Source: a bacterium | GTDB lineage: Bacteria; CAYTYR01; UBA6262 | Length of the DNA stretch: 35,474 nt | Reading direction: 5' to 3' | Assembly (NCBI GenBank): GCA_028712895.1 | Contig: JAQTPL010000021.1 | Span: forward strand, 1-35,474 | Shown here: one piece after another, positions 11,161 to 35,253 of the stretch | How the letters are laid out: the number at the start of each line of letters is the position of its first letter | Numbering within the stretch: the stretch's first letter is position 1 | Notes under the pieces: generated by a model | The model's input: the letters and a program-made list of their open reading frames with translations, nothing else | What the model was told of the DNA's origin: nothing | The model's database searches: none | Program-made: the position numbers and the translations under genes

Positions 11161-11216
11161 ATGCTGAATGCTGAATGCTAGATGCTAAATGCTAAATGCT
11201 AAATGCTAAATGCTGA
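11161..11216 (+). repeat. Heptanucleotide tandem repeat, 8 units of ATGCTRA
   Basis: Eight consecutive 7-nt units read ATGCTGA, ATGCTGA, ATGCTAG, four of ATGCTAA, then ATGCTGA, filling the whole gap between the lemA stop and the ribosome-binding region of the TPM gene. The 7-nt unit shifts reading frame at each copy and contains TGA and TAG/TAA stops, so it is not coding. Confidence 0.95.
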
Positions 11217-11226
11217 AAGAGAGAAC

Positions 11227-11979
11227 ATGCCTAGCCGTAAACTACTTTTAAAAATATTATTAATAGGAGTCCTGTCGTTTTTCTGCGCGACAGCCTTGGC
11301 ACTGGAAGTTCCGGAAAAACCAATCAGCCGGGTGAATGACAATGCCGGGATGTTTTCTAGCCAGACAGTAATGGAAATGTCACAAAACCTGGGTGATTTT
11401 GAAGCCCAAAAAGGCATCCAGATAGTAGTAGCTACTTTCCCCTCGCTGGAAGGGGACAACCTGGAAGATTTTTCCATCCGGCTCGCGGAAAAATGGAAGA
11501 TCGGGCAAAAGGGCAAGGATAATGGCGTTATCATTGTTATTTTCAAGAATGACCGCAAGATCAGGATCGAAGTAGGCTATGGCCTGGAAGCGGTCCTGAC
11601 TGATGCCATATGTTCGCAGATTATAGCCCAGAACATTGGTCCCAATTTTAAGCGGGAAAATTATGATGCTGGCATAAAAGAAGCGATTATTGCTATTCTC
11701 AATACGCTCAATGAAGAGCGCAGCGGTCACGGAAAAAAATCTACGCAAGACTCCAGCGGAACAAAAACAAATAAAATATTCGCCTTCTTCTTCCTGGTTC
11801 TAATCATAATAATAATAATTTTAAAATTTATTTCAGCCACATCGTACCATATTTCCGGCCGCGGTGGATATGGTGGAGGGTTCTGGGGTGGTGGTGGCGG
11901 CGGCTTTAGTGGCGGGGGTGGTGGTTTTAGCGGCGGTGGCGGCAGCTTTGGCGGAGGAGGCTCCAGCGGTGGCTGGTAA
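11227..11979 (+). CDS. TPM-domain secreted/membrane protein with Gly-rich tail (YgcG-like)
   Basis: About 250 residues: signal peptide (cleavage likely after A-L-A near residue 25), a TPM domain (start VNDNAGMFS; core IQIVVATFPSLEGDNLEDFSIRLAEKW; then KDNGVIIVI and IRIEVGYGLEAVLTD), one membrane helix rich in Phe and Ile, and a C-terminal tail of about 45 residues that is almost all Gly with interspersed Phe and Ser, ending GGW. TPM proteins partner with LemA; roles proposed for the family range from membrane-complex assembly to phosphatase activity. ATG 11227 is preferred over the in-frame ATG 11203, which lies inside the heptamer repeat and would put charged residues ahead of the signal peptide. 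Confidence 0.9.
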   Translation: MPSRKLLLKILLIGVLSFFCATALALEVPEKPISRVNDNAGMFSSQTVMEMSQNLGDFEAQKGIQIVVATFPSLEGDNLEDFSIRLAEKWKIGQKGKDNGVIIVIFKNDRKIRIEVGYGLEAVLTDAICSQIIAQNIGPNFKRENYDAGIKEAIIAILNTLNEERSGHGKKSTQDSSGTKTNKIFAFFFLVLIIIIIILKFISATSYHISGRGGYGGGFWGGGGGGFSGGGGGFSGGGGSFGGGGSSGGW

Positions 11980-11982
11980 TAT

Positions 11983-12438
11983 ATGAGGACTTTTAAACCG
12001 AATAAATTCTTAACTAGGGAAGAAAAAGAAAAAATTGTCGCTGCGATCAAGGAAGCTGAAAAGCAGACCAGCGGCGAGATCAGGGTCCATCTGGAAAAAA
12101 AGACCCCAGCTCCGGTATTGGAACGGGCTAAAGAATTATTTTTTAAGTTGAGTCTGGATAAGACACGGCATAAAAATGGGATCTTGATCTATTTGGCTAC
12201 CAGAGAAAAATTATTTGCTATAATCGGCGATGAAGGCATCAATCAGGCAGTGCCGGCTGGTTTCTGGGATGAGATCAGGGATATAATACAGAAGCATTTC
12301 AAGGATGATAATTTTAGTGATGGTCTGGTCGAAGCTATCCAAAAAGTCGGGGAGAAGCTGAAAGCTTATTTTCCGTATCAAACTGACGACCGGAACGAAT
12401 GCCCGGATGAGGTTAACGAGGGGGAAATAGGAAAATGA
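11983..12438 (+). CDS. Second TPM-domain protein, no signal peptide
   Basis: A 151-residue protein with a TPM domain (SGEIRVHLEKK, KNGILIYLATREKLFAIIGDEGINQAV) but no signal peptide and no membrane segment, unlike the preceding gene. Such short soluble TPM proteins often lie directly after a LemA and long TPM pair. It starts 3 nt after the previous stop and ends in an ATGA overlap with thiM, so all are probably co-transcribed. The C-terminus is acidic. Subcellular location is probably the cytoplasm, which would leave it on the opposite side of the membrane from its long paralogue; that is inference. Confidence 0.85.
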   Translation: MRTFKPNKFLTREEKEKIVAAIKEAEKQTSGEIRVHLEKKTPAPVLERAKELFFKLSLDKTRHKNGILIYLATREKLFAIIGDEGINQAVPAGFWDEIRDIIQKHFKDDNFSDGLVEAIQKVGEKLKAYFPYQTDDRNECPDEVNEGEIGK

Positions 12439-13226
12439 AAGTATCCAAGCTACTGGATAAAGTGCGGAAGCAGAAACCAATAGTGCATCATTTGACTAAC
12501 TGGGTAACTATTTATGATTGTGCCAATATCGTAAAAGCATTAGGCGCTTCCCCGGTCATGGCGCATGGCCCAGAGGAAGTTGCTGATATGGCGAAAATTG
12601 CCTCAGCTCTGGTATTGAACATTGGTACTTTAACTACTGATTTTATTGAAGCAATGAAACTAGCCGCGATCAGCGCTAACAGCAAAGGAATCCCGGTCAT
12701 ATTAGATGTGTGCGGAGCCGGAGCCACTCCTTTCCGGGATATTAAGTGTTTTGAACTATTGGATCAGGTACGTATTAATATTATTAAAGGCAATGCTTCA
12801 GAAATAGCGAAGATTGCCGGGGAAAATGTGCAGACTAAAGGTGTCGATGCCGGGAAAGTTGAAAAAAACCTGATAAGTGTGGCTCAGTCCTTGGCTAAAA
12901 CCAGGCAGGCAATAGTAGTGATCACTGGCCAGGAAGATATCATTGCCGGCCAAAATAAAACATTCTTAGTCCGGAATGGCGATGAAATAATGACTCATGT
13001 CGTTGGTACCGGCTGCATGGCTGCTTCGGTCATCGGGACTTTTGCCGCGGTTCATGAAGACTTGGCAGAAGCTGCTGCTGCCGGTTTGGCCTGTTATGAA
13101 ATTGCGGCTGAGCAGGCAGCAAAAAAAGCCAATGGGCCGGCGGATTTCAAAGTTATGATGTTTGATGCCATATACAAGCTGAATGGTAAAACGGCAGACC
13201 TTAAACAGCGGATCGTTAAAAAATGA
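12435..13226 (+). CDS. thiM: Hydroxyethylthiazole kinase
   Basis: A 263-residue ribokinase-fold kinase that phosphorylates 4-methyl-5-(2-hydroxyethyl)thiazole in the thiamine salvage route. Family features: N-terminal KPIVHHLTNWVTIYDCANI, GASPVMAHGPEE, VLDVCGAGATPFR, IIKGNASEI, VVITGQEDII and the catalytic anion-hole region VVGTGCMAASVIG, with the Cys typical of ThiM. It overlaps the TPM gene and thiE by ATGA junctions at both ends. No TPP riboswitch was recognised in the gaps upstream of this operon. Confidence 0.96.
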   Translation: MKVSKLLDKVRKQKPIVHHLTNWVTIYDCANIVKALGASPVMAHGPEEVADMAKIASALVLNIGTLTTDFIEAMKLAAISANSKGIPVILDVCGAGATPFRDIKCFELLDQVRINIIKGNASEIAKIAGENVQTKGVDAGKVEKNLISVAQSLAKTRQAIVVITGQEDIIAGQNKTFLVRNGDEIMTHVVGTGCMAASVIGTFAAVHEDLAEAAAAGLACYEIAAEQAAKKANGPADFKVMMFDAIYKLNGKTADLKQRIVKK

Positions 13227-13828
13227 GAGGATACTACTTTATCACTGATGCCGGGTTAAGCCTTGCCGGTATTATAATTGATGTGAAAAATGCTATCCAG
13301 GCTGGTGTAGAGGTTGTGCAGTACCGGAACAAAACCGGTACTACAGCTGAATTGTATAACGAAGCAGCAGCCTTGCGCGGCCTCTGTAAAAGAACGCATT
13401 TATTGATCAATGACCGGATAGATATTGCCCTGGCCGTAGGTGCAGACGGTATTCATTTAGGCCAAGAAGATATGCCGGTCAGGGAAGCCAGGCGTCTAAT
13501 AGGCCCGAAAAAAATTATTGGCCTTACCGTTCATTCACTGCAAGAGGCTAAAGAAGCGCAAAAACAAGGGGTTGATTATATCGGCGTATCCCCGATCTTT
13601 GCCACTGCTACTAAGCTTGATGCCGGAGAGCCGGCTGGCGTATTGCTGATAAAGAAGATCAAAAAAGAGGTAACCCTACCACTGGTAGTTATCGGTGGGA
13701 TTACCCTGAAAAACGCTCCGCAGGTGATTGCTGCCGGCGCTGATGCTGTCTGCGCCATCTCCGCTGTTATCACCAAAAAAGATGTGCAAAGTGAAATTTT
13801 GAAGTTTCAGAAGTTATTTAGTTTTTAA
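13223..13828 (+). CDS. thiE: Thiamine-phosphate synthase
   Basis: A 201-residue TIM-barrel enzyme that joins HMP-pyrophosphate and thiazole phosphate to thiamine phosphate. Motifs: YYFITD at the start, VVQYRNKTG, LLINDRIDIALAVGADGIHLGQEDMP (phosphate and Mg site), IGLTVHS, GVDYIGVSPIFATATK and VIGGITLKNAPQVIAAGADAVCAISA. Its role directly follows thiM in salvage. ThiD, which supplies the pyrimidine half, is not in the window. The stop is immediately followed by a heptamer repeat. Confidence 0.96.
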   Translation: MRGYYFITDAGLSLAGIIIDVKNAIQAGVEVVQYRNKTGTTAELYNEAAALRGLCKRTHLLINDRIDIALAVGADGIHLGQEDMPVREARRLIGPKKIIGLTVHSLQEAKEAQKQGVDYIGVSPIFATATKLDAGEPAGVLLIKKIKKEVTLPLVVIGGITLKNAPQVIAAGADAVCAISAVITKKDVQSEILKFQKLFSF

Positions 13829-13861
13829 CTATCAACTATCAACAATCAACTATGAACTGAT
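13827..13861 (+). repeat. Heptanucleotide tandem repeat, about 5 units of AACTATC
   Basis: Consecutive 7-nt units AACTATC, AACTATC, AACAATC, AACTATG and a weaker AACTGAT begin within the thiE stop codon and run to the hairpin before the next gene. Confidence 0.85.
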
Positions 13862-13874
13862 TCCGGGAGGAATC
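13859..13874 (+). promoter_or_regulatory. Hairpin enclosing the ribosome-binding site of the glycosidase gene
   Basis: GATTCC (13859-13864) and GGAATC (13869-13874) are perfect 6-bp complementary arms with a GGGA loop. The arm and loop together form the Shine-Dalgarno GGGAGGA, and the GTG start at 13875 follows the stem without a gap. If the stem forms, the site is partly masked. Confidence 0.6.
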
Positions 13875-15806
13875 GTGGAACAACTCCCCCAGCCAAAATT
13901 TAAACTGGAAATTCCTGGTTCTGATACGGTTGTCGATTACCGGCTCTATGGTGAGTTTAAAAATGTGGGTACCTTTGAGTATGAATACATCATCAGGGAT
14001 AAAACTGGCCTGGCTAGGTCTGTAGGACAGGGTATCTTCCCTCATGAATATGATTATAGCCAGGATTCCTACTACCAAAGCATCAAAAGTAAGGGTTTAT
14101 TGGAAGGTAATCCCTGGGATCATATCTATACTGATAATCCGCAAGCTGATTTTTTTATCTGGGCGACTACTGATAATGTTGAACGGGGAGTACGGCAGTT
14201 CTTTATCGGGGAGATTTTTCAGTATGCCGGTTTAATAGCCCAAGCGGTAAAAGCATTTTATGCTACCCTGGTCCATTATCCACGCAGTATCTGCTGGTCC
14301 AATGACAACCGGAGTTTTTTCTGGTTTGTCGGCCAGGCAGCTATAGTTAAGATCAACCATCTCTGCCGGCAATACCCGGAACTTGGGGTGCGCCTGGAAG
14401 GTGCTGATTTTAATATTGGCGGCCATCGTGAATTTCCTTTGCGTAATCTTGACCTGGGTAAAGAAAAAATTGAGATCATCCCCGGGTTTTTCAGCCCCTG
14501 GGGCAGGAATGAGCGGGTCAAGGAAGAGAAAGACCTGAATGCCATGGAAATAACCAAGACTGTGGGCACCGGGAAAGTCCAGTTGGTGCAATTTGGCAAC
14601 CGGCATTGGCAGCTGCGCGTTGACGGGAAGCCATTCTTTGTCAAAGGCATAACGTATGCGCCGACCCGGGTCGGGGAAACCCCGTTCCCGGAAACTTTGG
14701 CCAAATTTCCCAAAGCTATGCCCAAAGCCAATTGGATGTGGCAGGATACCAATAATAACGGTAAAATAGATGCTCCTTATGAAAGCTGGGTAGACAAGAA
14801 CCGCAACCGGGTCCAGGATGAGGATGAACCAGTAGTGGGGGATTTTAAATTACTGAAAGATATGGGTTGCAATTGCCTTCGTTTTTATCATGAACCAGAG
14901 CATAATAAATATAATTATGCCTGTCTTAATAAGCCGTTGCTTAGGGATATGTATGTGAATTATGGAATTCGGGTAGCGCTGGGAGATTTCCTCGGGGCTT
15001 ATTGCCTGGGGTCAGGAGCGGATCAGTCCTGCGGCACTGATTATGCTGATCCCGCGCAATGTGCCAGGATGAAAAAAATAGTGGAAGACATGGTCCTGGA
15101 TAACCGGGATGAACCCTATATATTATTATGGGTCCTGGGGAATGAAAACAATATGCCAGCGGTCAATAGCATTAATGCGGTCCGCACCAATGCTTATACT
15201 AATCCGGTGGCTTACCTGAATTTTGTCAATGAAGTGGCCCAGATGATCCACCAGCTTGATCCTAATCACCCCGTAGTTACCTGCAACAATGATGTGGTCC
15301 ATCTTAATCATTTACGGGACTTGGCTCCGGATGTCGATATCTTTGGCGTTAATGCTTATAAGGGATCAGCAGGTTTTGGCGAGTTATGGCAACAAGTATA
15401 CCGGATCTATGACAAACCGATACTAGTGACCGAATATGGCTGTGATTGCTATCATCCCGGCCAGGGAGTGAACGAAGGGGAACAGGCCATCTATCATGAG
15501 GCCTGCTGGAAAGACATACTTTATAACCGGGCTGGCCGCGGTGGATATGGTAATTCAATCGGCGGCATTGTTTTTGAATGGCTGGATGAATGGTGGAAAT
15601 CCAACCGTGAAACCTCGCCTTTTGAGCATGATACGACGCATAATGATTTATTTATTCTGCCTGATGGAACAGTCAGTGAGGAGTGGTTTGGCCTCTGCGG
15701 CCAAGGAGACGGCAAGCAATCGCCATTCTTGCGGGAATTGCGACGGGCGTACTACCTCTACAAAACCATGTGGACCGAATGGCCGCTCTGGGAACCAAAG
15801 AAATAG
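13875..15806 (+). CDS. Clan GH-A glycoside hydrolase-like protein (GH2 TIM-barrel type)
   Basis: A 643-residue protein. Residues 1-215 are a region I do not recognise. From about 235 there is a beta-rich lead (WQLRVDGKPFFVKGITYAPT, typical just before a GH2-type barrel), then a TIM barrel with the two clan GH-A glutamates: acid/base in WVLGNEN (N423-E424) and nucleophile in LVTEYG (E520). Two EF-loop-like segments interrupt the first part of the barrel: D291-x-N-x-N-G-x-I-D299 and D307-x-N-x-N-x-V-x-D315. No signal peptide is seen, so a cytoplasmic place or an unusual export route must be assumed. The substrate is unknown; beta-glucan or storage-glycan processing is only a guess. The start is GTG behind GGGAGGA. 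Confidence 0.82.
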   Translation: MEQLPQPKFKLEIPGSDTVVDYRLYGEFKNVGTFEYEYIIRDKTGLARSVGQGIFPHEYDYSQDSYYQSIKSKGLLEGNPWDHIYTDNPQADFFIWATTDNVERGVRQFFIGEIFQYAGLIAQAVKAFYATLVHYPRSICWSNDNRSFFWFVGQAAIVKINHLCRQYPELGVRLEGADFNIGGHREFPLRNLDLGKEKIEIIPGFFSPWGRNERVKEEKDLNAMEITKTVGTGKVQLVQFGNRHWQLRVDGKPFFVKGITYAPTRVGETPFPETLAKFPKAMPKANWMWQDTNNNGKIDAPYESWVDKNRNRVQDEDEPVVGDFKLLKDMGCNCLRFYHEPEHNKYNYACLNKPLLRDMYVNYGIRVALGDFLGAYCLGSGADQSCGTDYADPAQCARMKKIVEDMVLDNRDEPYILLWVLGNENNMPAVNSINAVRTNAYTNPVAYLNFVNEVAQMIHQLDPNHPVVTCNNDVVHLNHLRDLAPDVDIFGVNAYKGSAGFGELWQQVYRIYDKPILVTEYGCDCYHPGQGVNEGEQAIYHEACWKDILYNRAGRGGYGNSIGGIVFEWLDEWWKSNRETSPFEHDTTHNDLFILPDGTVSEEWFGLCGQGDGKQSPFLRELRRAYYLYKTMWTEWPLWEPKK

Positions 15807-15815
15807 GAGTTTATG

Positions 15816-17465
15816 ATGTATAGTATCATCGGGATTTTGTTTTGGCTGGTCATAATTTATATTATTGTCAGGAAATTTATTGGATATAAAAGGAAGCATT
15901 ATGATTGGCTGCAAAAACAGATCATCACCTGGGAAAACGGTAAGCTTATTTCCACAGAGCAAGGTACTGCTATTTTAGCCAGCTACAACTTAAAACGGGT
16001 AGACCCGGCCAGGAAACTGGATACAATTAAAATATTGACTTTGATCGGCGCTATATTTGTTGGCGTAGGTATCATTTTTATGGTCGCCAGTAATTGGCAG
16101 GAAATACCAAAGATAGTACGCACGGCGATGCTTTTAGGTCTTACCTTAGGGACTTTATATACCGGGTATTATGTATCTTATGAAAGAACAGATTACCCTT
16201 TATTGGGTAAAAGCTTATTTTTGCTGGCTGGATTGTTCTGGGGTGGCAGTATTGCCTTAATTACCCAAATTTACAATATTCCAACCTCAAAGAACTGGTT
16301 TATTTTTCTGCTCTGGGCTTTCCCGATTTTGCCGGTAGCTTATTTCTTTAAAAATGAATATACTTATGTCTTATCTTCAGCCTTATTCTTGATCTGGGAT
16401 ATTACTTACTCTACCAGTAATAATACGGCTAACTATTATTATCTTGTACTGGTTTTCCTGCTGCTTCTGCCCATTGCCAGAATTTTTATTAAGTGGGAAT
16501 GGGTTAATGTGCTAAGTTTGGTTATGGCGGCGGTGAGTGCTGTTTTTCTTAAGCAGGACTATTTTATTTTAACTGCCAGCGCCGGCCTGCTGGTATATTA
16601 TCTCTGGGTCAAGAAACAGGAAATTTTCCTGTTGGCCGCTGCCTTGTGTTTCCCCCTCTGGCTTATTGCTTTCTTCATGATCCGGCAAGCTACCCCGAAC
16701 TTTTACTTCCTGCTGCCTTTAACCTTGCTCTTTTATCTTTCTTATAAAGCCAAATCCCAGGTGGCAGCGTCAATTAACCTGGCCAGCGCCGTGCTCTGGA
16801 TTAACCTGGTCCTGGCTGCTTACCTGAATATTACGCGGCAATCCTATAATATAATATCATTTAGCCTGTTACACTTCCTGGTCGGGAGTATACTATTCAC
16901 TATCGGCATGCTGCATAAGGGCTGGTATGAGGAGTATGTTCCTTTATATAAGATCAGTGGTTTTGCCCTGTGTTCTATTTTTGCTTATTTGTTGGCTTTT
17001 AAGCAGGTATATACTGCCGCGCTACCTGCACCGGGATTGTTCTTTTTCTCATCACAGGCAGCGTTGGTTTTACTGATTTTATTAGCGGCAATAGCCGGCT
17101 GGCAAGGTTACTTTAACCATAAAAACGGTAAATTGGAACTTATCGGATTGCTGCTGTCCGTATCCGGGGCCGTACTGATACTTTTGAATCCGGCGCAACC
17201 GCTGCTAAACACGGTCGTAGCTAATTTTATTTTAGTAGTTTTTGCCGTGCTCTGTGTTTTTAGCGGTGTGGAAGCGCAAGATCCTCTTTTATTCAATTGC
17301 GGGGTAGCCTTTTTTGTATTATTTATTATTACCCGGTATATAGATATTTTTTGGAAACTTCAGGAAAAGTCCATCTTTTTCCTGGTCAGCGGGATCATCC
17401 TGATCTTTAGCGGCATGTATCTGGAAAAAAAGCGGCGGCAAATTATTGAAAGGATGAAAGGTTAA
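15816..17465 (+). CDS. DUF2157 polytopic membrane protein
   Basis: About 549 residues. The N-terminus has one membrane helix, then a soluble stretch (YDWLQKQIITWENGKLISTEQGTAILASYNL) that matches the DUF2157 domain, followed by roughly 14 hydrophobic helices. GGAG (15806-15809) is 6 nt from ATG 15816 and only 3 nt from ATG 15813, so 15816 is preferred. It shares a TAATG overlap with the next gene, a GDYXXLXY protein. These two families are regularly adjacent in bacteria, and DUF2157 plus GDYXXLXY is presumed to form one membrane complex of unknown role. Confidence 0.9.
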   Translation: MYSIIGILFWLVIIYIIVRKFIGYKRKHYDWLQKQIITWENGKLISTEQGTAILASYNLKRVDPARKLDTIKILTLIGAIFVGVGIIFMVASNWQEIPKIVRTAMLLGLTLGTLYTGYYVSYERTDYPLLGKSLFLLAGLFWGGSIALITQIYNIPTSKNWFIFLLWAFPILPVAYFFKNEYTYVLSSALFLIWDITYSTSNNTANYYYLVLVFLLLLPIARIFIKWEWVNVLSLVMAAVSAVFLKQDYFILTASAGLLVYYLWVKKQEIFLLAAALCFPLWLIAFFMIRQATPNFYFLLPLTLLFYLSYKAKSQVAASINLASAVLWINLVLAAYLNITRQSYNIISFSLLHFLVGSILFTIGMLHKGWYEEYVPLYKISGFALCSIFAYLLAFKQVYTAALPAPGLFFFSSQAALVLLILLAAIAGWQGYFNHKNGKLELIGLLLSVSGAVLILLNPAQPLLNTVVANFILVVFAVLCVFSGVEAQDPLLFNCGVAFFVLFIITRYIDIFWKLQEKSIFFLVSGIILIFSGMYLEKKRRQIIERMKG

Positions 17466-18001
17466 TGAGTAAAAAAGCTATTACATTGGTTATTGCCGCG
17501 GCTTGGCTCTTAATCGCTTTAGCTATTATTATTTCCAGAGAACGGATCCTGTCCACTGGCCAGATGATCATGTTAGAAACCATTCCGGTTGATCCTCGTG
17601 ACCTGTTAAGGGGTGATTATGTTATCTTGAATTATAAGATCAGCACTATTGACAGGTCTCGTGTCTCCAGTGAGCCTGGCAGCTATACTTACGGGCAGCC
17701 GGTTAATGTGAATTTAGAACCTGTCGGGAAATTCTGGCAGCCGAAGGCGGTCTGGATAAAGAATAAACCATCCGGCGGAGTTAATATAAAAGGCCTGGTC
17801 AGGAGCAGCCAGGGACTATCTTTCAATATAGAATATGGGATAGAAAGCTATTTTGTCCCTGAAGGGAAGGGCGCCGGGATTGAAACTGCCCTAAGAAGAA
17901 ATGTATCTGGGAAGGTGGCGGTAGAGGTTGCTGTTGATAACAGCGGCAGGGCTATGATCAATCGGGTGTTAATTGATGACCGGCCTGTAAAATTTGATTA
18001 G
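17465..18001 (+). CDS. GDYXXLXY domain protein
   Basis: A 178-residue protein with one N-terminal membrane helix (about 5-24) and then the family-naming motif G50-D-Y-V-I-L-N-Y57 after PVDPRDLLR. The rest would lie outside the inner membrane. It directly overlaps the DUF2157 gene, its usual partner. Function is not known. The stop overlaps the stop of the convergent PilZ gene by 3 nt. Confidence 0.92.
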   Translation: MSKKAITLVIAAAWLLIALAIIISRERILSTGQMIMLETIPVDPRDLLRGDYVILNYKISTIDRSRVSSEPGSYTYGQPVNVNLEPVGKFWQPKAVWIKNKPSGGVNIKGLVRSSQGLSFNIEYGIESYFVPEGKGAGIETALRRNVSGKVAVEVAVDNSGRAMINRVLIDDRPVKFD

Positions 18002-18348: not shown

Positions 18349-18463
18349 AAAAATAGTCCTTTCCTGGTGAATGGTTATATTTTTTTACCTTATTTGGCCG
18401 CTTAGTGTCAAGAGATATTACAAGCAGGGTATGTTCTATATTACCTGAAGGAGCATTAAAAAT

Positions 18464-19117: not shown

Positions 19118-19125
19118 TATTTTAC

Positions 19126-24667: not shown

Positions 24668-24755
24668 GCAGTTATAAGTTTTGAATTTTAAGTTTTAAGT
24701 TATGGTAAGAAGCTTTCACCTTAATTCAAAACTCAACACTCAAAACTCAAAATTA
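24668..24755. repeat. Facing heptamer arrays inside the rnf operon (AAAACTY family)
   Basis: A left array of about five 7-nt units (TAAGTTT, TGAATTT, TAAGTTT, TAAGTTA and a weaker first unit, 24668-24702) and a right array of five units (TTAATTC, AAAACTC, AACACTC, AAAACTC, AAAATTA, 24721-24755) are degenerate reverse complements, separated by 18 nt centred on AAGCTT. The RNA could fold into a long A/U-rich hairpin between rnfA and rnfB. Confidence 0.85.
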
Positions 24756-26458: not shown

Positions 26459-26470
26459 TTCAGCGTCATA

Positions 26471-26494
26471 GGGTCAGAGTGTCAAAGGGTCAAA
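26471..26494 (+). repeat. Short octamer tandem repeat GKGTCARA, 3 units
   Basis: GGGTCAGA, GTGTCAAA and GGGTCAAA follow each other, with weaker related 7-nt units (GTTCAGC, GTCATAG) before them from 26457. The array separates yicC from the ribosome-binding site of cutA. Confidence 0.65.
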
Positions 26495-26517
26495 GTAAGA
26501 GCTGGGAGGAGCAGTAC

Positions 26518-26853: not shown

Positions 26854-26859
26854 ATAGAC

Positions 26860-27948: not shown

Positions 27949-28946
27949 TGGAAGCGCTGTACTATAAAATTATTGATGCAAATAAAAAAGTGGCACAGTG
28001 TGAACTGTGCCCTTTTTTATGCGTACTTGAGCCGGAGCAGATTGGTAACTGCGGCATCCGCCAGAACCTGGACGGCAAGATATATGCTTTAGTCTATGGG
28101 CAATTTGCTTCGGTCAATCTTGATCCTATCGAAAAAAAACCATTGTACCATTTCTATCCAGGCAGTGATATTTTTTCAGTGGGGACCGCCGGCTGTAATT
28201 TCCATTGCCAATTCTGCCAGAATTGGGAGATTTCCCAAAAGAAGCCGTCAGAATTGCTGTTACGGGAAATTTCCATTGATGATATTGTGCGAATGGCCAA
28301 ACAATATAACAGTATTGGCATAGCCTATACCTATAATGAGCCGCTGGTTAATTATGAATTTGTCCTGGAATGCGCGGAACAAGCTCATAAATACGGTCTT
28401 AAGAATGTCCTGGTAACCAATGGCTATATCCAGGAAAGCCCGTTGCTCAGGTTACTGCCTTTCATTGATGCCGTTAACGTTGATGTTAAATCGTTTCGCG
28501 ATGAGTTTTACAAAAAAATGTGCGGCGGCCGCCTGGCTCCGGTGTTGCGTACGGTAGAAACCTGCGCCCGCAAAAAGATCCATATAGAATTAACCAACCT
28601 GATCATCCCGCATCTCAATGATTCCCAGGAAGAACTGGAAGATTTGACTGATTGGGTCTATGCGCTGGGAGAAGAGACCCCGCTGCATTTTTCCCGTTAT
28701 TTACCCTGTTATAAAATGACGGCAGAGCCGACACCTCTGGCGACGCTGCTTAAAGCCCGGGACATTGCCATTAAGAAATTGAAATATGTCTATATCGGCA
28801 ATGTATTTGAAGAGCGGGAAACAAAAACATATTGTCCCCATTGCCAGGAACTGCTGATCATCAGGCAAGGGTATCGCACTGCGGTCAAGGCGGTGAAAGA
28901 TAGCCGTTGCACAAAATGCGGGAACAAAGTCAATGTTATTCAATAA
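27948..28946 (+). CDS. AmmeMemoRadiSam-type radical SAM enzyme (PflA-like)
   Basis: A 332-residue radical SAM protein. The cluster motif is CNFHCQFC (C83, C87, C90). It is preceded by a Cys-rich N-terminus, CELCPFLC ... GNCGIR (C18, C21, C25, C35), and followed at the C-terminus by a zinc-ribbon pair CPHC ... CTKCG. This layout matches the AmmeMemoRadiSam system enzyme rather than a glycyl-radical activase. In that system it occurs with Memo-like and AMMECR1 proteins; neither is seen in the window. The substrate is unknown. It overlaps the porin gene at the 5' end and the ApbE-like gene at the 3' end. Confidence 0.9.
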   Translation: MEALYYKIIDANKKVAQCELCPFLCVLEPEQIGNCGIRQNLDGKIYALVYGQFASVNLDPIEKKPLYHFYPGSDIFSVGTAGCNFHCQFCQNWEISQKKPSELLLREISIDDIVRMAKQYNSIGIAYTYNEPLVNYEFVLECAEQAHKYGLKNVLVTNGYIQESPLLRLLPFIDAVNVDVKSFRDEFYKKMCGGRLAPVLRTVETCARKKIHIELTNLIIPHLNDSQEELEDLTDWVYALGEETPLHFSRYLPCYKMTAEPTPLATLLKARDIAIKKLKYVYIGNVFEERETKTYCPHCQELLIIRQGYRTAVKAVKDSRCTKCGNKVNVIQ

Positions 28947-29994
28947 TAACTCAAAACTCACCTGTCCTCGCGTCTTTGATTTTTTCCGTAGGACAAATCA
29001 GCAGGGGAAAACTCAAAACTCAAAATTGCTTTTTATATTCATATTAATATTTTTGTTCGGATGTAAGCCCAGAGAGCAAGAAGTGTACGATGCCAGGGTA
29101 ATGCTCGGCACGGTGATCGAGATTAAAATAGTTGATACCGATTCCCAAAAGGCGAGGCAAGCTCTCTCTGCGGCTTTCGATGAGATCAGCCGCATCGAAA
29201 AGCTCATGTCTCATTTTAACCGGGACAGCGCTCTTTCGCACTTGAACAAGAAGGGTTATACAGAAGATAAAGAGCTGTACGCGCTTATCTCCAAGGCCGT
29301 AGAAATTAGCAAAATTACTGACGGCGGCTTTGATGTGACGGTAGGGCCGCTCATGAGTTTATGGGATTTTAAGGCCCAAACCCCGCGAGTGCCGTCGACA
29401 CAGCAAATCAGTCAGAAGTTGAAGAATATTGGATACAAATATATAAATTTTGATTCCAATAAAAGTAGAATTATGATAAAAAAGGGCATTGACATTGATC
29501 TGGGCGGTATTGCCAAAGGATATGCGACAGACCAAGCCGTTGCTATTTTGCAGGAACAGGGTATCCATACCGCGTTAGTTAATTCTGGCGGTGATATCCG
29601 GGCTATCGGTGATAAAGAATGGCGTATCGGGTTGAAAAATCCGCGAGGTAATGATATCCTGGTCGCCATTACAGTTAAAAATAAAGCCGTCATTACCAGT
29701 GGAGATTATGAGCGGTATTTCATCAAAGATGGCCGGCGCTACCACCATATTTTGGACCCACATACCGGTTATCCGGCTGACCAGTGCCAGAGCGTGACTG
29801 TTATCGCTCCGACTGCCACTGCAGCGGTGGCACTGGCTAAGGGAATTTTTGTGGCTGGTCCAGAAAAAGGTTTGGGAATTGTTACCTCTCAATCTCAGAC
29901 GGAAACTATTATTATCGATAACCAGGGCAGCTTATATGCGTCCCCTGGTTTAGTAAAAAAAGGGAATACCTATCTGGTACAAGAGGCCCAGTAG
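28933..29994 (+). CDS. apbE: ApbE-like FAD:protein FMN transferase with altered metal site
   Basis: A 353-residue lipoprotein-like homologue of ApbE, which attaches FMN to Thr of proteins such as RnfG and RnfD. A hydrophobic stretch LLFIFILIFLFGC gives a lipobox at C44. ApbE motifs: MLGTVIEI, FDVTVGPLMSLW, DIDLGGIAKGYATD, NSGGDIRAIG (217-226) and HHILDPHTGYPAD (271-283). The closing motif, usually A-D-A-L-A-T-A, reads A298-V299-A-L-A-K303-G: the Asp and Thr Mg2+ ligands are replaced. The first 31 residues are encoded across a repeat and look odd before a signal peptide. No ATG or GTG lies nearer, so the start is uncertain. The location near rnf supports a flavinylation link, but activity is doubtful. 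Confidence 0.82.
   Translation: MLFNNNSKLTCPRVFDFFRRTNQQGKTQNSKLLFIFILIFLFGCKPREQEVYDARVMLGTVIEIKIVDTDSQKARQALSAAFDEISRIEKLMSHFNRDSALSHLNKKGYTEDKELYALISKAVEISKITDGGFDVTVGPLMSLWDFKAQTPRVPSTQQISQKLKNIGYKYINFDSNKSRIMIKKGIDIDLGGIAKGYATDQAVAILQEQGIHTALVNSGGDIRAIGDKEWRIGLKNPRGNDILVAITVKNKAVITSGDYERYFIKDGRRYHHILDPHTGYPADQCQSVTVIAPTATAAVALAKGIFVAGPEKGLGIVTSQSQTETIIIDNQGSLYASPGLVKKGNTYLVQEAQ
28947..29028 (+). repeat. Two short AAAACTC arrays flanking an inverted-repeat core, at the apbE 5' end
   Basis: TAACTCA and AAACTCA (28947-28960) lie on one side and AAAACTC, AAAACTC, AAAATTG (29008-29028) on the other of a core with complementary pieces CCTGTCC and GGACA. The unit is the same as in the rnfA-rnfB array at 24721-24755. 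It overlaps the predicted N-terminus of the ApbE-like protein. Confidence 0.75.
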
Positions 29995-30332
29995 TGGAAA
30001 AATTCAACGAAAAAGACAAACTTTATAAAAATGGCGACTGGGGTACAAAATATTTTGTGAACGGGCCTCACTGGGAAGGCGGACTGGTCGTCTTTAAACC
30101 TGGCCAAAAGTTGGGTGAGCATTTTCACCGGGAGGTGGAAGAGATATTTTACTTCCTGGAAGGCGCTCCGGCCATGATCATAGACGGCAAAGAGTACCGC
30201 GTACAACCTGGCGATGTTTTCAAAGTCGCTGCCGGTGAAAAACATGATATTATTAACGATACTGAACGACCAATGAAAGCGCTCTTTATTAAAAGCCCTT
30301 ACCGGCCCACTGATAAGATTGCTACGCAATGA
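29994..30332 (+). CDS. Small cupin-domain protein
   Basis: A 112-residue single-domain cupin. The metal-binding motifs are GEHFHREVEEIFYFLEG (H-F-H with a following Glu) and the second-motif His in GEKHDI, after YRVQPGDVF. All expected ligands are present. The substrate cannot be told; such minimal cupins often act on sugars or as small isomerases or sensors. The start is GTG 29994, overlapping the TAG stop of the ApbE-like gene. A large inverted repeat starts at its stop codon. Confidence 0.9.
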   Translation: MEKFNEKDKLYKNGDWGTKYFVNGPHWEGGLVVFKPGQKLGEHFHREVEEIFYFLEGAPAMIIDGKEYRVQPGDVFKVAAGEKHDIINDTERPMKALFIKSPYRPTDKIATQ

Positions 30333-30432
30333 TTACACAGATTACGAAAAGCGATTACACAGATTAAAACGAAGAACAACAAAAGCTTTGTGTAAGTAAT
30401 CGGTGTAATCTCTTTTGAAAATCAGTGTAATC
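30331..30432. repeat. 102-nt imperfect inverted repeat built from GATTACACA-type units
   Basis: The left arm (30331-30366) holds two direct copies of GATTACACAGATTA 22 nt apart; the right arm (30397-30432) is its reverse complement at 30 of 36 positions, with a 30-nt loop. The structure starts within the cupin stop codon and ends about 10 nt before the ribosome-binding site of the next gene. Confidence 0.9.
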
Positions 30433-30454
30433 TATTCTAACAAAGGATGTGCTC

Positions 30455-31849
30455 ATGAGCCAATCTTCGGAAAAGCATAAACATGAAAAACGCAAAACTA
30501 ACAGGTTGAGAACCAACATCCCGTTTAAGTACTATGCTCTGAGCGGGCGGGAAGAGATCCTCAAGGAAGGGAAAATACTGGAGATCTCATCAGAGAATGT
30601 TCTCTTTGATAATCCGGAAGGCATCAGTATCGGCGACCGTATCAGGTTTGAGGTGACTTTGCCGACGCTGATGGATGTAGTCCGGTGCTGGGGAGTCGTG
30701 ACCAGGCTTGATTACGACGAAAAGCAGGCTGCTCTGGAATTTGACCAAATGGAAGACGTAGGCCGTAAACAGATCCAAACCTTTTTAGAACGCAGTGACA
30801 TTATTCGCTTACTTGAAACTACCCTGGAAGAAGGCGCTAGTGACTTACACTTGTCAGTAGGTCATAAACCGCATATCCGGCTGGGCGGTAGTCTAAAGCC
30901 GTTGCCCAATCAGGATGTTTTGACCGGCATTATGCTTAAAAAAATGATCTACAGTATCTTATCTCCTGACCAGACATCTGTCTTTGAAAAACGAATGGAA
31001 TTAGACTCTTCCTTCGCTTTGTCTCCGATCGTCAGGTTCCGTTATAATGTGCATGTCCAGAGAGGAAATGTGGAAATTGCCTTCCGGCGCATTGAGTCAA
31101 ATATCCGCACCTTAACTGAATTAGGTTTGCCGCCGGTAGTTGCCGACCTGGCCCGGAAACACAGCGGATTGGTGATCGTAACCGGGGCTACCAATGCCGG
31201 CAAGACTACAACCGTATCCGGAATGGTAGACTTGATCAATAATGATCGTTCCTGTGTTATCATTACTCTGGAAGATCCGATCGAGTATGTCCATGATTTT
31301 AAAAAAGCCATCGTCAAACAGAGAGAAGTTGGACTGGATACGAAATCATTCACTATCGCTTTAAAGCATGCCTTGCGCCAAGACCCGGATGTGATCGTGA
31401 TCGGTGAAATAAGAGATGCCGAAACCATGGCCACAGCATTGTCTGCTGCCGAGACCGGGCATTTGATCATAGCAACCTTACCGGCATATGATTCGGTGCA
31501 GGCGATCAGCCAGATCGTAAATATGTTCCCAGTCGAACAACAGCGCCAAGCCAGGATGCAATTGGCAGAAACGTTGCAAGGCATGATTTACCAGATGCTG
31601 CTCCCTCATGCTGAAAGGCCCTGGCAGCGGGTATTGGCTACGGAAATACTGGTCGTGACTCCGGCCGTGCGTAATTTAATCCGCGACCAGCGTTTGGAAC
31701 AACTCCCTCTGGTTATCCAGACAGGAGGCGCCCAAGGTATGCATACTTTCGATTCTTCACTGGAACTGTTGCTGCGCCGCCGGGAAATAAGCCAGGAAAC
31801 AGTGAATGAACGCTGCCGTGACAAGAAGAAATTCGGGATCAAAGAATAA
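30455..31849 (+). CDS. PilZ-PilT fusion: N-terminal PilZ domain plus secretion/retraction ATPase
   Basis: About 464 residues. Residues 13-112 form a PilZ domain (RxxxR at R13-R17, but the second motif reads EISSEN instead of D/N-x-S-x-x-G). From about 115 it follows PilT: EEGASDLHLSVGHKPHIRL, Walker A G244-A-T-N-A-G-K250-T, the Asp box IITLEDPIEYVH (269-280), Walker B DPDVIVIGEIRDAET, TGHLIIATL, and the PilT C-terminal signature AVRNLIRDQRLEQLP (AIRNLIRE type). The second His-box His (TLHT) is Pro343 here. AAAGGA is 7 nt before ATG 30455. It may couple cyclic-di-GMP directly to pilus retraction or a related motor. No other pilus genes are in the window. Confidence 0.9.
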   Translation: MSQSSEKHKHEKRKTNRLRTNIPFKYYALSGREEILKEGKILEISSENVLFDNPEGISIGDRIRFEVTLPTLMDVVRCWGVVTRLDYDEKQAALEFDQMEDVGRKQIQTFLERSDIIRLLETTLEEGASDLHLSVGHKPHIRLGGSLKPLPNQDVLTGIMLKKMIYSILSPDQTSVFEKRMELDSSFALSPIVRFRYNVHVQRGNVEIAFRRIESNIRTLTELGLPPVVADLARKHSGLVIVTGATNAGKTTTVSGMVDLINNDRSCVIITLEDPIEYVHDFKKAIVKQREVGLDTKSFTIALKHALRQDPDVIVIGEIRDAETMATALSAAETGHLIIATLPAYDSVQAISQIVNMFPVEQQRQARMQLAETLQGMIYQMLLPHAERPWQRVLATEILVVTPAVRNLIRDQRLEQLPLVIQTGGAQGMHTFDSSLELLLRRREISQETVNERCRDKKKFGIKE

Positions 31850-31851
31850 AC

Positions 31852-32469
31852 ATGCGCTATAAATTAAAAACAGTCCCACTGACTATGGATATTCTAGTTG
31901 TCATTTATCTGGCCTTGTCACTCTGGCTGGTCTATGAAAGTGATGTCCTGGGATATACGAAAATATTCAGCTTGGTCCCGGCTAAGATTGCCCAGACCAA
32001 GGTATTTGCTCTGCTGTTTAGGATCAGGCTTTTTATTTTTGCTATTGTATGCTGTGCTTTTACGATCGGCTTATATTATCTGAAAAAATGGGCTTTTATC
32101 GGCACGCTTGTCCTGAATCTTATCACCCTGATCACGGCTGAACCATTGGTCAGGGTGGTCACTTTTTTTGCCATTATTTACCTTGTTTTACAGCGGGAAT
32201 ATTTTAGCATCGGCGAATTTAAAAGGCCTGAATACAAAGATCTTATTCATGTTGATCTGCTGAAAGGGGATAAGCAGTTAGGCCAGCCAGAAGAGCGCTA
32301 TGACTTGAAAATAGAAGAATTACTGGCATCTGGCCAGTTAAACGAAGCCAGCGAATATGCGCAAGGCTTAATCGCTATTGCCCGGCAAATGGCTGATGTT
32401 AAGAACCTGATATTTTATGAAAAATATGTGGAAAAAATAAACCGCGTCAAGAGTCGGACCGTGCTATGA
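31852..32469 (+). CDS. Membrane protein of unknown function
   Basis: A 205-residue protein, not recognised. It has four hydrophobic helices in the first 120 residues (about 10-28, 52-74, 78-98 and 102-118), followed by a soluble acidic/helical C-terminal half (ERYDLKIEELLASGQLNEASEYAQGLIAIARQM) that looks like a single TPR-like helical hairpin. It lies 2 nt after the PilZ-PilT gene and overlaps maf by an ATGA junction, so it is co-transcribed with both. A role as membrane partner of the fused ATPase is possible but unsupported by motif. Confidence 0.75.
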   Translation: MRYKLKTVPLTMDILVVIYLALSLWLVYESDVLGYTKIFSLVPAKIAQTKVFALLFRIRLFIFAIVCCAFTIGLYYLKKWAFIGTLVLNLITLITAEPLVRVVTFFAIIYLVLQREYFSIGEFKRPEYKDLIHVDLLKGDKQLGQPEERYDLKIEELLASGQLNEASEYAQGLIAIARQMADVKNLIFYEKYVEKINRVKSRTVL

Positions 32470-33062
32470 AGGATTCCCTGAAGCATGAATATATTTTAGC
32501 CAGTGCTTCACCCCGCCGCAAACAACTACTCAAGGAAATGGGCCTCCGGTTTAAAATAATCCCCAGTTCAATCAAAGAAGTGGCTGATCCTACCCTTAGC
32601 CCGTCACAACTAGTCAGGAAACTGGCTTGGCAGAAAGCAGCTGATATTGCTCAGCGGTTTAGAGGGAAAAAATATATTGTGATCGGGGCAGATACTATTG
32701 TTGTCAGGAAGGGCGAGATCCTTGGAAAGCCTCGGGATCCACGGCATGCCCGGCAGATCTTGCATAAGCTGAGTGACAGTGTTCATTTTGTATATACCGG
32801 AGTAGCGGTGATCGATGCCGTGACCGATCAGAAGATAATAGCTTATGAAAAAACCAGGGTGAAGATGAAAAAACTAAGCCGGGAAGAGATTAAGTATCAT
32901 TCCGGGAGGCATTTGGATAAAGCTGGCGCTTACGCGGTTCAGGAAGAAAAAGATGCTTTTATAGAAAGAATAGACGGCTGTTATTATAATGTGGTTGGCC
33001 TACCCCGTAATCTTCTTAAGGGTATGCTTAAGAAGATTAATAGTAAGAGCAAAAGGCAGTAA
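32466..33062 (+). CDS. maf: Maf/Ham1-fold nucleoside-triphosphate pyrophosphatase
   Basis: A 198-residue Maf protein that hydrolyses non-canonical or excess (d)NTPs to the monophosphate. Motifs: LASASPRRKQLL (17-28, substrate loop), VIGADTIVV with the catalytic Asp, GKPRDPRHARQIL, and GAYAVQEEKDAFIERIDGCYYNVVGLP near the C-terminus. Length is normal. It overlaps the membrane-protein gene by ATGA. The 3' end runs into a repeat and a bidirectional terminator facing the SurA-type gene. Confidence 0.95.
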   Translation: MKDSLKHEYILASASPRRKQLLKEMGLRFKIIPSSIKEVADPTLSPSQLVRKLAWQKAADIAQRFRGKKYIVIGADTIVVRKGEILGKPRDPRHARQILHKLSDSVHFVYTGVAVIDAVTDQKIIAYEKTRVKMKKLSREEIKYHSGRHLDKAGAYAVQEEKDAFIERIDGCYYNVVGLPRNLLKGMLKKINSKSKRQ

Positions 33063-33113
33063 TAGCGAGAAACAGTTGCCAGTAAGCGCGAGAGGCAGTG
33101 AATCAATTAAAAG

Positions 33114-33150
33114 AAAAAGCAGTTAACCTAAATTAAGTTAACTGCTTTTT
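33114..33150. terminator. Bidirectional rho-independent terminator between maf and the SurA-N gene
   Basis: Perfect 14-bp arms AAAAAGCAGTTAAC (33114-33127) and GTTAACTGCTTTTT (33137-33150) with a 9-nt loop. T5 follows the stem on the plus strand and, by symmetry, on the minus strand, so it can end transcripts from both convergent genes. Confidence 0.9.
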
Positions 33151-33171
33151 GTATTTATAGGTTTTCGCTCT

Positions 33172-33206
33172 AACTGCCATCTGCTATCTGCGATCTGCCA
33201 TCTATT
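33172..33206 (-). repeat. Heptamer tandem repeat ATCTGCN, 5 units, abutting a stop codon
   Basis: AACTGCC, ATCTGCT, ATCTGCG, ATCTGCC and ATCTATT run head to tail; the last unit overlaps the TAG stop (33202-33204) of the minus-strand gene. The segment 33161-33178 is also a degenerate reverse complement (about 15/18) of 33055-33072 at the end of maf, so the terminator is nested in a larger inverted repeat. Confidence 0.85.
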
Positions 33207-33933
33207 CTGTCTGTCCCGTCATTTGTTTCTCTATCTTTTCCAGGTTGTTTTCTATTTTTGCCGCAGCCTGCAGTTTTTTATACCATTCCTCAAAAAACTG
33301 TGACTTTTTCTGCTGCACCAGGGTTTGTTTTATCAGCTCTCTTTCCTTTAACAGGTCTTCCGGTTTCGGGGCTGGCTTCTTATCCTTGAGCTGTTTGGCT
33401 ACCTCATCTGCCAATTCTTTATCAGTGACCGTTACGGTGGCGATAACTTTTTCCTGCAGTTGCTGGATGATCAGGCTTTCCTTAACATCCTTTTCAAATA
33501 CTGCCGGGGTAGTGCGCAGCTGCATTTTCAGTATATTCAAATATTGCTGCTTGTCAAATCGGCCATCTTTCTGGAAATAAGGCAGTTTTTGAACGTAATC
33601 GCTTAACTCTTTATCTGAGACCCTGAGCTTCATTTTATTAGCTTCCTGGAGCAGGAGTATTTTGCCGATCATTTCATTGAGAACCATTTTTTTCAGGTTA
33701 TTGGCCATTTCTTCATTAATATCAATATTATACATATTGCGGTAATTATTCATTCGCTGCAAAAAAGTAGCATTGAATGATTCATACCTGATTTTCTTCC
33801 CATTGACCTTGGCGACCACATCAGCCGTATTAGTAAAGAAATAGCTCCCTAACCCCACGAACGTGGCCAGGATGAAAATACTGACTGCGAACCACAGGAA
33901 TATCTTGGTATTCTTACGTATTGCTTTAAGCAT
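33202..33933 (-). CDS. SurA N-terminal-domain chaperone without a PPIase domain
   Basis: A 243-residue membrane-anchored periplasmic protein. N-terminal helix 12-34 is a membrane anchor, followed by ADVVAKVNGKKIRYESFNATF, the SurA/PpiD start, and a long helical region (LNEMIGKILLLQEANKMKLRVSDKELSDYV, then PYFQKDGRFDKQQYLNILK) as in PpiD. It ends in a Lys/Glu/Gln-rich helix with no parvulin domain, so it should act as a chaperone rather than an isomerase. The ATG has AGGAGG 9 nt upstream on the minus strand. The MITE-like element begins 28 nt upstream of the ATG, so its promoter is probably in or beyond that element. Confidence 0.88.
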   Translation of the reverse strand: MLKAIRKNTKIFLWFAVSIFILATFVGLGSYFFTNTADVVAKVNGKKIRYESFNATFLQRMNNYRNMYNIDINEEMANNLKKMVLNEMIGKILLLQEANKMKLRVSDKELSDYVQKLPYFQKDGRFDKQQYLNILKMQLRTTPAVFEKDVKESLIIQQLQEKVIATVTVTDKELADEVAKQLKDKKPAPKPEDLLKERELIKQTLVQQKKSQFFEEWYKKLQAAAKIENNLEKIEKQMTGQTE

Positions 33934-33961
33934 GACCTAATTCCTCCTGTTAACAAAGTTC

Positions 33962-34126
33962 AACCCGGATTTTGCACTAGGTTTGATGAACCGAGATGGA
34001 AAAGCGCATAGTATTTTTGTCTCAAAAAAGTGCGAGCATACTCGTAGAGTTATGTAAGCAGTTTTTTAGACGAAAAGACGTAGCGATTTTTCGTCGAATT
34101 CCAAATCCTATTGCAAATTACGGGTT
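33962..34126. mobile_element. 165-bp MITE-like element with 20-bp terminal inverted repeats
   Basis: AACCCGGATTTTGCACTAGG (33962-33981) matches the reverse complement of 34107-34126 at 17 of 20 positions (mismatches at positions 7, 9 and 16). The interior has no ORF but several small hairpins: GGTT-TGATG-AACC, CGAG-CATA-CTCG, and GACGAAAA with TTTTCGTC. No target-site duplication was found. It fills the gap between two divergent genes. A structured RNA is the alternative reading. Confidence 0.6.
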
Positions 34127-34191
34127 AAGAGAATATACCCTAAACAGCAAAATAAAGCAAGTTTTTTTATAATGTAATATTAGGTTCGATA

Positions 34192-34200
34192 TGTTATAAT
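34192..34200 (+). promoter_or_regulatory. Extended -10 promoter of the AEC transporter gene
   Basis: TGTTATAAT (34192-34200) is an extended -10 element; no good -35 is seen at 16-18 nt. The ATG (34211) begins 10 nt after the hexamer and has no ribosome-binding site. A second TATAAT lies at 34168-34173. Confidence 0.5.
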
Positions 34201-34210
34201 TATTACTCTT

Positions 34211-35104
34211 ATGCCTACTATAACCATTCTTTTCTCCCGTGTTTATATTTTTATCCTGCTGGGCTATATTCTGGGCCGTTATGTGCGGTTCAATATCCAG
34301 CGGGAAGCGCAGGGGATCATTAATATCGGGATGTATGTCCTTTTTCCGGTTTTTGTGCTAGTGACAATGTGGGCGGAACCGCTGCCTACTGCATTTTTGT
34401 CCCGGGTCTGGCTGCTGGCCGCAGGAGTGGTAATTGGCGGCGCTGGCCTGGCCTGGTTATTTAGCCGGATTTATGCTATGCCCTATCGGGACTGCAGCTT
34501 GCCCATCATCTTTATCAATTCGGCATACCTCGGGATCCCTGTCAATACTTATATATTAGGCCCGGCAGCCACCAAATATGCCATTATTTTTGATCTGGTC
34601 CCGACTCTTATTATGTTCACTTTCGGCGTGGCTCTGGTGGCCAAAGGGGATAGGCTAAAAGAAATGCTGAAAATGCCCCTGGCCTATGCTGCTCTTATTG
34701 GTATGCTTTTAAATGCACAAGGTGTGCCTGTCCCCTGGCCAGTGCTTAAAATAACCGGTTTTATTAAAACTATAACCATACCCTTGATCCTGGTTATTGT
34801 GGGCTATGAACTTAAACCTTTTAAAACGACCTTATTGAACCGGGTGTTAGCTGCCTCCGTATTACGTATGGCTGGTGGCGCAATCATGGCTTTTAGTTTA
34901 GTTTCTTTGCTGCGGCTGGAAGGAATTCCGGCTTTGGTGTGTTTGATCAGCGCCAGCATGCCCAGCGCCGTCAATAGTTATGTATTGGCCAGGAAATACC
35001 AGGCTAATGCGGAATTTGCTGCAGCTGTGGTGGCTATGGGCACCCTGATCAGCCTCCCTGTTATTATGATAATTTCTTTACTTATACACGGGAAAATGAT
35101 ATAA
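34211..35104 (+). CDS. AEC (auxin efflux carrier) family transporter
   Basis: A 297-residue integral membrane protein with about 9-10 helices and the AEC layout: FILLGYILGRY near the start, LFPVFVLVTMW, INSAYLGIPV (conserved N-S-x-x-x-G-x-P, about residues 102-111), PLILVIVGYEL and a final AAVVAMGTLISLPVIM. AEC members carry organic anions such as malate, or act as amino-acid or other exporters; the substrate is not predictable. The gene appears to be transcribed alone from an extended -10 promoter and is probably leaderless. Confidence 0.92.
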   Translation: MPTITILFSRVYIFILLGYILGRYVRFNIQREAQGIINIGMYVLFPVFVLVTMWAEPLPTAFLSRVWLLAAGVVIGGAGLAWLFSRIYAMPYRDCSLPIIFINSAYLGIPVNTYILGPAATKYAIIFDLVPTLIMFTFGVALVAKGDRLKEMLKMPLAYAALIGMLLNAQGVPVPWPVLKITGFIKTITIPLILVIVGYELKPFKTTLLNRVLAASVLRMAGGAIMAFSLVSLLRLEGIPALVCLISASMPSAVNSYVLARKYQANAEFAAAVVAMGTLISLPVIMIISLLIHGKMI

Positions 35105-35155
35105 TAAATTTAATATTGATAGCGAATAAGAGCTGAATAGAAGCAGCAAATGACT

Positions 35156-35253
35156 CGAATACTTAATATTCGTGCGTTTAGTTGTTTTTATTAGCGGTAT
35201 TCGCTGCCTTTATTTGAGTGATTAGCATCTCTTAAATTCGCGTAATTCGCTGA
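35156..35253 (+). repeat. Nonamer doublets (ATTMGCGKW) and a hairpin before valS
   Basis: Three doublets of 9-nt units lie at 35190-35207, 35212-35229 and 35236-35253 (for example ATTAGCGGT+ATTCGCTGC and ATTCGCGTA+ATTCGCTGA). They are preceded by a perfect hairpin CGAATA-CTTAA-TATTCG (35156-35172). The 157-nt gap between the AEC gene and valS is largely made of this material. Confidence 0.7.

Follow-up and report, generated by a model that had tools for sequence, protein, structure and literature searches.

Short tandem repeats of 7 or 8 nt stand in the gaps between genes of a 35,474 nt bacterial contig (JAQTPL010000021.1 of assembly GCA_028712895.1; its full length is called the window here), which is contig C29 of a 1.93 Mb draft genome in 75 contigs (the own genome). 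We found that these repeats form several multi-copy families with lineage-specific copy numbers, that sites filled in one genome can be empty in a sister, and that units are exchanged at orthologous gaps. For the one family tested in depth, whole elements share a consensus and occur in both orientations. On balance, we favor the reading that the arrays are the arms of miniature palindromic elements, akin to REPINs (inverted doublets of repetitive extragenic palindromic, or REP, sequences) or MITEs (miniature inverted-repeat transposable elements), that turn over fast and replace one another at a few permissive intercistronic sites.

An initial annotation of the window had listed seven gaps with short-period arrays. 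Tandem Repeats Finder recovered arrays at 11160, 13827, 24670, 26465, 29008, and 33174; the sites at 30331 and 35190, however, proved to be inverted repeats with spaced 9-nt-like words, not strict tandem arrays. The suspicion that the periodicity extends through the genome was borne out. We analyzed 1.25 Mb of the own genome, taken as stretches, with genes called crudely as open reading frames (ORFs) of ≥80 codons, longest first. Intergenic DNA matched itself at lag 7 with a frequency of 0.2975 (dinucleotide shuffles, 0.269), and harmonics appeared at lags 14 and 21; coding DNA had no such lag-7 peak. Period-7 segments numbered 83 in 70 of the 715 gaps, compared with none in five shuffles. Period 8 was weaker (13 segments, none in shuffles), and the period of 9 nt that had also been proposed was absent, with no segment across the 715 gaps. 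Coding DNA (1.13 Mb) held 31 segments versus 7 after shuffling, a density ∼35-fold below that of the gaps. As had been remarked, units differ between gaps, and tandem 7-nt intergenic units at many loci resemble short tandemly repeated repetitive (STRR) heptads. Two features had been missed: arrays are frequently paired in inverted orientation, and each unit recurs at many loci (TAGCGNN, AGTTTTR, CTAGTNN, TAGCTCN, GTTGATA, and others).

A typical element is ∼80–110 nt long: about four units make up the 5′ arm, a core of ∼20 nt follows, and the 3′ arm holds the units in reverse complement, each unit being 7 or 8 nt and degenerate, with roughly five fixed letters and two or three variable ones. 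In many gaps the paired element occupies the space between the stop codon and the next ribosome-binding site. RNA folding of seven examples predicted long hairpins with a mismatch about every 7–8 nt (z from −1.4 to −6.2). Single arrays without an inverted partner also exist, as do composite gaps holding several unit families. Array gaps lay mostly between co-directional genes (61 of 70, the rest being 7 convergent and 2 divergent), where the first array began a median of 8 nt past the stop codon and the last ended a median of 17 nt upstream of the next start. Of 53 first arrays, 34 lay within 20 nt of the stop codon; this closeness to stop and start arises largely because the element fills the gap.

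We then compared the own genome with two congeneric genomes, G001 and G002 (RnfC 92% and 83% identical to own, respectively), and with a same-family genome, G003; all genus genomes used are fragmented drafts. Among named lineages, the closest RnfC matches reached only ∼55% identity (UBP18, a Zodletone bin, and Nitrospinota/Nitrospirota). Orthologous gaps were located by mapping both flanking genes, which average 86% DNA identity between own and G001. For 213 adjacent gene pairs, the gap was short in both genomes in 88, longer than 30 nt in both in 99, and discordant in 26, so that occupancy agrees in 187 of 213. Among 65 pairs with both gaps at 56–260 nt, identity was spread widely in what looks like two peaks: a conserved one (70%–98%) made up of promoters, terminators, and a few elements, and 31 pairs at the identity level of mismatched gaps. 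Where a unit was readable on both sides (20 pairs), it differed in 14 and was the same in 6, compared with 3.7% same under random pairing, in keeping with the unit replacement that had been anticipated for sister genomes.

Within the window, the unit differs in G001 at 11161 (AGTTGCGAGTTTCGAG in G001), 13827 (AACTCGN), 24668, 28947, and 30331 (a ATCAGGNN octad hairpin), and the family is retained at 26471 and 35190. Three genomes carry three units at 24668, where AACTCGN arms stand in G001 and GATACGAT arms in G002, and again at 28947, with GTCGTTC heptads in G001 and AAAATCA-like repeats in G002. The GKGTCARA octad of 26465 is kept in G001 and faces a GTGATAAA-type octad in G002; the 3′ part of the gap at 33174 differs in both sisters. 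An occupied orthologous gap that holds a different word in the sister suggests that elements are replaced in place, and at high speed.

The AACTCGN family of G001 illustrates this best. Of 13 orthologous sites where G001 carries the family, 11 hold another periodic unit in the own genome, one a non-periodic inverted repeat, and one nothing; the family itself is present at 0 of these 13 own sites, and G001 lacks the own occupant there. Two of these 11 differing units are the one-letter relative CGAGTC. Gap lengths are similar at the 13 sites, with a large additional insertion in one own gap. A naive random-gap expectation would leave 52% of the G001-family sites empty in own, which is an unfair null under length-weighted insertion (own is empty in 15 of the 112 pairs in which the G001 gap is ≥35 nt); our argument rests instead on replacement without lengthening. 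Short or empty sites in one sister with an element in the other are seen at pairs 325, 393, and 909. The unit changes are unpolarized, their direction not being readable from these genomes. From the discordant counts, only about one doubly filled site would be expected if insertions were independent and all sites equal; since sites are surely unequal, rapid turnover at hot sites and rewriting in place both stay candidates.

Full-length alignments of TAGCGNN elements from different loci are obtained once each is oriented, and both orientations are present. Their variable letters are slot specific across loci, as in the third 3′ unit, which usually reads CTACCCG. When units were permuted within arms and orientations re-fitted (500 permutations), mean slot similarity was 0.668 for the real elements compared with 0.586 for the permuted ones (SD 0.010, maximum 0.627). 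Slot-shared letters in both orientations indicate that whole TAGCGNN elements were copied and dispersed from one ancestor, which neither slippage nor reverse transcription acting locally at stop codons explains. The initial annotation had proposed just such a mechanism and a common process without a common sequence; neither idea is supported, given the recurrence of unit families and the letters shared between loci. For paired elements, the slot test likewise disfavors an origin by slippage alone.

Copy numbers are specific to the lineage. AACTCGN pattern hits numbered 44 in G001, 1 in own, 0 in G002, and 8 in G003, and ATCAGGNN had 39 copies in G001, 4 in own, and 1 in G002, whereas CTAGTNN was biased the opposite way (17 in own, 2 in G001, 11 in G002). 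TAGCGNN had 35, 46, and 34 copies in the three genomes, and three consecutive TAGCGNN units (TAGCGNNx3) gave 0 hits in same-family and same-class genomes. Backwards-pattern controls gave 0 in the genomes for which lineage-specific counts are reported. The pattern AACTCANx2 was poorly suited to such counting, as the letters change from one unit to the next and the pattern read backwards is in fact a register of a family. In two unrelated genomes TAGCGNNx3 reappeared, with 48 hits in one and 14 in the other (backwards control 0 in both). Among 80 contigs from other phyla, fetched through an unrelated gene, Nitrospinota and Nitrospirota contigs show the same architecture: a Nitrospinota locus (L034) carries the window octad GTGTCARA as an inverted pair, and another locus (L053) carries TAGCGNN and GTCATTN-type pairs. 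On a Nitrospirota contig (L090, 1099–1342) we also observed a tRNA-like sequence followed directly by an inverted AACTTCN/AAGTTNA heptad pair in a divergent gap. Carriage by phages was considered and set aside, since at least 120 TAGCGNNx3 hits in 2.9 million viral contigs are approximately what we estimate for chance and are thus uninformative.

We infer both a mobility machinery and a function. The elements may spread as non-autonomous mobile DNA, perhaps via a single-stranded hairpin; they would persist chiefly at those few positions between cistrons that tolerate a hairpin or profit from one, and incoming families would oust older ones at these positions, in part by way of composite intermediates. 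The conserved occupancy may reflect a mild function in the mRNA, as intercistronic insulation or stability.

Several observations weigh against this reading of turnover by mobile palindromes. No target-site duplications were found at the empty sites, inspected by eye, and no sharp termini are common across families. The two Y1-transposase genes of the own genome are not flanked by heptad elements. Near-perfect single arrays (CTRAATG ×8, and GTCGTTC and GGTGTARA in G001) look like local slippage, and plain transposition does not explain why sequence-unrelated families share unit length and architecture. The slot test covers one family (TAGCGNN, 15 elements), and the coding sequences were called by a crude longest-ORF rule. 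The gaps around three Y1_Tnp genes examined in G001 were also without heptad elements; a link to REP-associated tyrosine transposases (RAYTs) is not supported, as the Y1_Tnp genes lack flanking elements, and the presence of Y1_Tnp in 28 of 40 genomes is uninformative. Family alignments contained no invariant end 16-mer such as REPINs have; the units hold two or three variable letters. The own Y1_Tnp genes, which are IS200/RAYT-like (C13:5313–5639, locus L015; C44:15982–16218, locus L117), have nearby repeats such as GGGGTCAGCCCTTGAAA, which are not heptad hairpins.

A more novel reading, which we offer tentatively, is a distinct class of bacterial element: periodic-mismatch hairpins, operating in several phyla, whose site, length, and architecture would be inherited while the 7–8 nt unit is exchanged from a genome-wide vocabulary, driven by a mobilizing or templating activity that reads architecture and not sequence.

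Clearly less probable than the favored reading, in our judgment, is rewriting in place, in which gene conversion, hairpin template switching, or a reverse transcriptase would convert the units while site, length, and pairing are kept. The gap at 24668 fits this idea, as arms of equal length and in register carry different units (AGTTTTR in own, AGTTTCG in G001); some other pairs show one change in every unit (CGAGTC versus CGAGTT; GTGGTAAA versus GGTGTAAA), and the agreement in occupancy points the same way. Most swapped units, however, are unrelated and even 7 versus 8 nt long, so homologous conversion cannot act on them, and empty sites exist. Arm-to-arm complementarity at the variable letters was 0.42, compared with 0.50 for order-permuted units, which argues against templating by fold-back between the arms. 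The arms are not extra complementary at these letters, so the mismatches belong to the element; as element copies are mutually non-independent, we stop at that conclusion.

Selection for intercistronic RNA hairpins is an unlikely explanation. Here sequence would be free and hairpin size kept, for mRNA stability or translational insulation, with repeats as the cheapest source. Occupancy is indeed conserved while sequence is replaced; a hairpin is predicted at 24668 in all three genomes, weakly in own (z −1.4, compared with −3.2 and −2.4 in the other two); and divergent gaps are rare among array gaps (2 of 70 versus 53 of 715 overall). Such selection nevertheless leaves the dispersed multi-copy families, the slot consensus, and the regular unit length unexplained, and arrays without a partner exist.

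We consider it quite improbable that local replication slippage at stop codons made these repeats as classical simple sequence repeats (SSRs). Among the long SSRs of bacteria, heptads are the commonest class, and work cited by PMC4679880 and PMC4692102 has proposed slippage as their source; near-perfect single arrays such as 11158–11214 fit. Slippage is at odds with families recurring across loci, with inverted pairing, and with the slot consensus, and recent slippage would not be expected to leave two or three letters variable in each unit. An artefact of metagenome assembly is barely credible even with fragmented drafts throughout the genus, given that the arrays, at 30–50 nt, fall far below the length of the gap flanks, synteny holds for the flanking genes, the two arms of a hairpin are in balance, conserved arrays recur in separate genomes, and independently assembled relatives carry arrays with other units, contrary to what the initial annotation expected of an artefact.

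Table 1. Repeat features of the window
Feature	Position	Strand	Remarks
Single heptad array CTRAATG (ATGCTRA), ∼8 copies	11158..11214	+	After stop at 11157, before next gene; no inverted partner; Tandem Repeats Finder 11160–11214, 7 nt, 7.9 copies
Single heptad array AACTATC, 4.6 copies	13827..13858	+	Overlaps upstream stop codon; Tandem Repeats Finder
5′ arm of inverted heptad pair, AGTTTTR units	24669..24701	+	Starts CAG; Tandem Repeats Finder 24670–24701, 4.6 copies; family alignment
Inter-arm core ATGGTAAGAAGCTTTCACCTT	24702..24722	+	GGTAAAA/TTTTACC-type palindrome common to family members
3′ arm, AAAACTY units	24723..24754	+	Inverted partner; Tandem Repeats Finder 24726–24752, 3.9 copies
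Octad array GKGTCARA	26465..26496	+	Tandem Repeats Finder, 8 nt, 3.9 copies
AAAACTC heptads, interrupted by 47-nt insert	28948..29028	+	Tandem Repeats Finder 29008–29025, 2.6 copies
Inverted pair of GATTACACA-type words	30331..30432	+	Starts inside TGA stop; RNA fold z −6.2
Heptad array CTGCNAT	33174..33203	+	End of convergent gap; Tandem Repeats Finder, 4.3 copies
Inverted pair of GCGAATA/ATTCGC words, degenerate	35122..35254	+	Same family in G001

Other repeats and structures stand beside these features. The insert that splits the AAAACTC heptads (28961–29007, CCTGTCC...CAGGGG) has related blocks in G001 and at locus L251 of G002; at the G001 block, the own gap is 8 nt compared with 183 nt (pair 101). 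This block looks like a second dispersed repeat landing in heptad arrays. In G001 (L198, ∼53.4 kb), a 30-nt double palindrome, TCAGCCAGAGGCTGATCCGCCTTTGGCGGA, is set cleanly into one arm of a GTTGATA element and is absent at the own counterpart (L021+L134:33679), and the other arm holds a second palindrome, CCCGCC/GGCGGG; a REP-like class is present alongside the heptad elements. In the convergent gap at 33118–33158, a hairpin followed by a T-run (GCAGTTAAC...GTTAACTGC), likely a terminator, is kept in both sisters while the adjoining repeat words change. A leader of 220–230 nt is 85% conserved between own and G001 (pair 427) and resembles a cobalamin riboswitch. No Rfam family matched the window at the gathering threshold.

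Earlier reports each dealt with a single heptad word in a single genome and invoked slippage or regulation ad hoc. In the present data, hairpins at corresponding gaps of congeneric genomes are spelled in different words, vocabularies are specific to the lineage, and related words turn up in distant phyla, which makes the origin of bacterial heptad repeats testable. The data point to a population of palindromic elements in fast turnover, and the matched sites, the families, and the empty sites give a basis for tracing its engine. They also carry a warning: much intergenic DNA in such genomes reflects element turnover, while many neighboring promoters and terminators stay 80%–98% identical.

Heptad hairpins are already known piecemeal from Xanthomonas, Geobacter, and Nostoc; in the open-licence literature we found no description of many coexisting heptad or octad families exchanging at orthologous sites. 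The GGGAATC heptamers of Xanthomonas and Nostoc are degenerate, (GGGANTN)n, with four units preferred; in Xanthomonas they are mostly intergenic, form inverted pairs at 70–75 sites, and often lie near stop codons (Rehm et al., 2015; PMC4692102). Our elements are similar in having about four degenerate heptads per arm, inverted and intergenic. Xanthomonas, however, has one unit family per genome, and its sister species share the unit at 83% of sites; here, by contrast, the unit has changed at most of the sites that can be compared; and, unlike in Xanthomonas-type repeats, G-tract units capable of forming G-quadruplexes are absent among TAGCGNN, AGTTTTR, CTAGTNN, TAGCTCN, and GTTGATA. In Geobacter metallireducens, multicopy elements similarly comprise four or five tandem heptads (GGGACCG ×4 at 49 sites, MTYCTGA ×5), some drawn as folded pairs; they are proposed regulator sites that also occur within genes, and the sections of PMC2700814 that deal with them describe no comparison of units at orthologous sites. 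The P6b stem of the Nostoc tRNA-Leu intron has degenerate heptads on both sides of a hairpin, in two classes at one position across Nostoc (Costa et al., 2002, as cited in PMC3488679); that is one locus in a group I intron, whereas we see many families genome wide. TAACTGA arrays in Beggiatoaceae, Cyanobacteria, and Bacteroidetes are intergenic and near start codons (MacGregor, 2015; PMC4679880). They likewise are abundant and place one word in distant phyla, but are a single unit in direct repeats (one indirect) without unit replacement, as opposed to the inverted pairs and exchanged units found here. STRR and long simple-sequence heptads share the tandem 7-nt units, in several copies at many intergenic loci; unlike those simple direct repeats, many of ours are inverted pairs with a core and an element consensus. 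The nearest mobile analogue is the REPIN, or REP doublet, with its RAYT: inverted short repeats forming extragenic hairpins of ∼70–110 nt, in several families per genome (PMC3116915). REPINs have invariant 16-mers and a linked RAYT, whereas our elements have degenerate heptad arms and no linked Y1 transposase was found; both consist of two inverted repeats and a spacer that form a hairpin, and both are dispersed extragenically.

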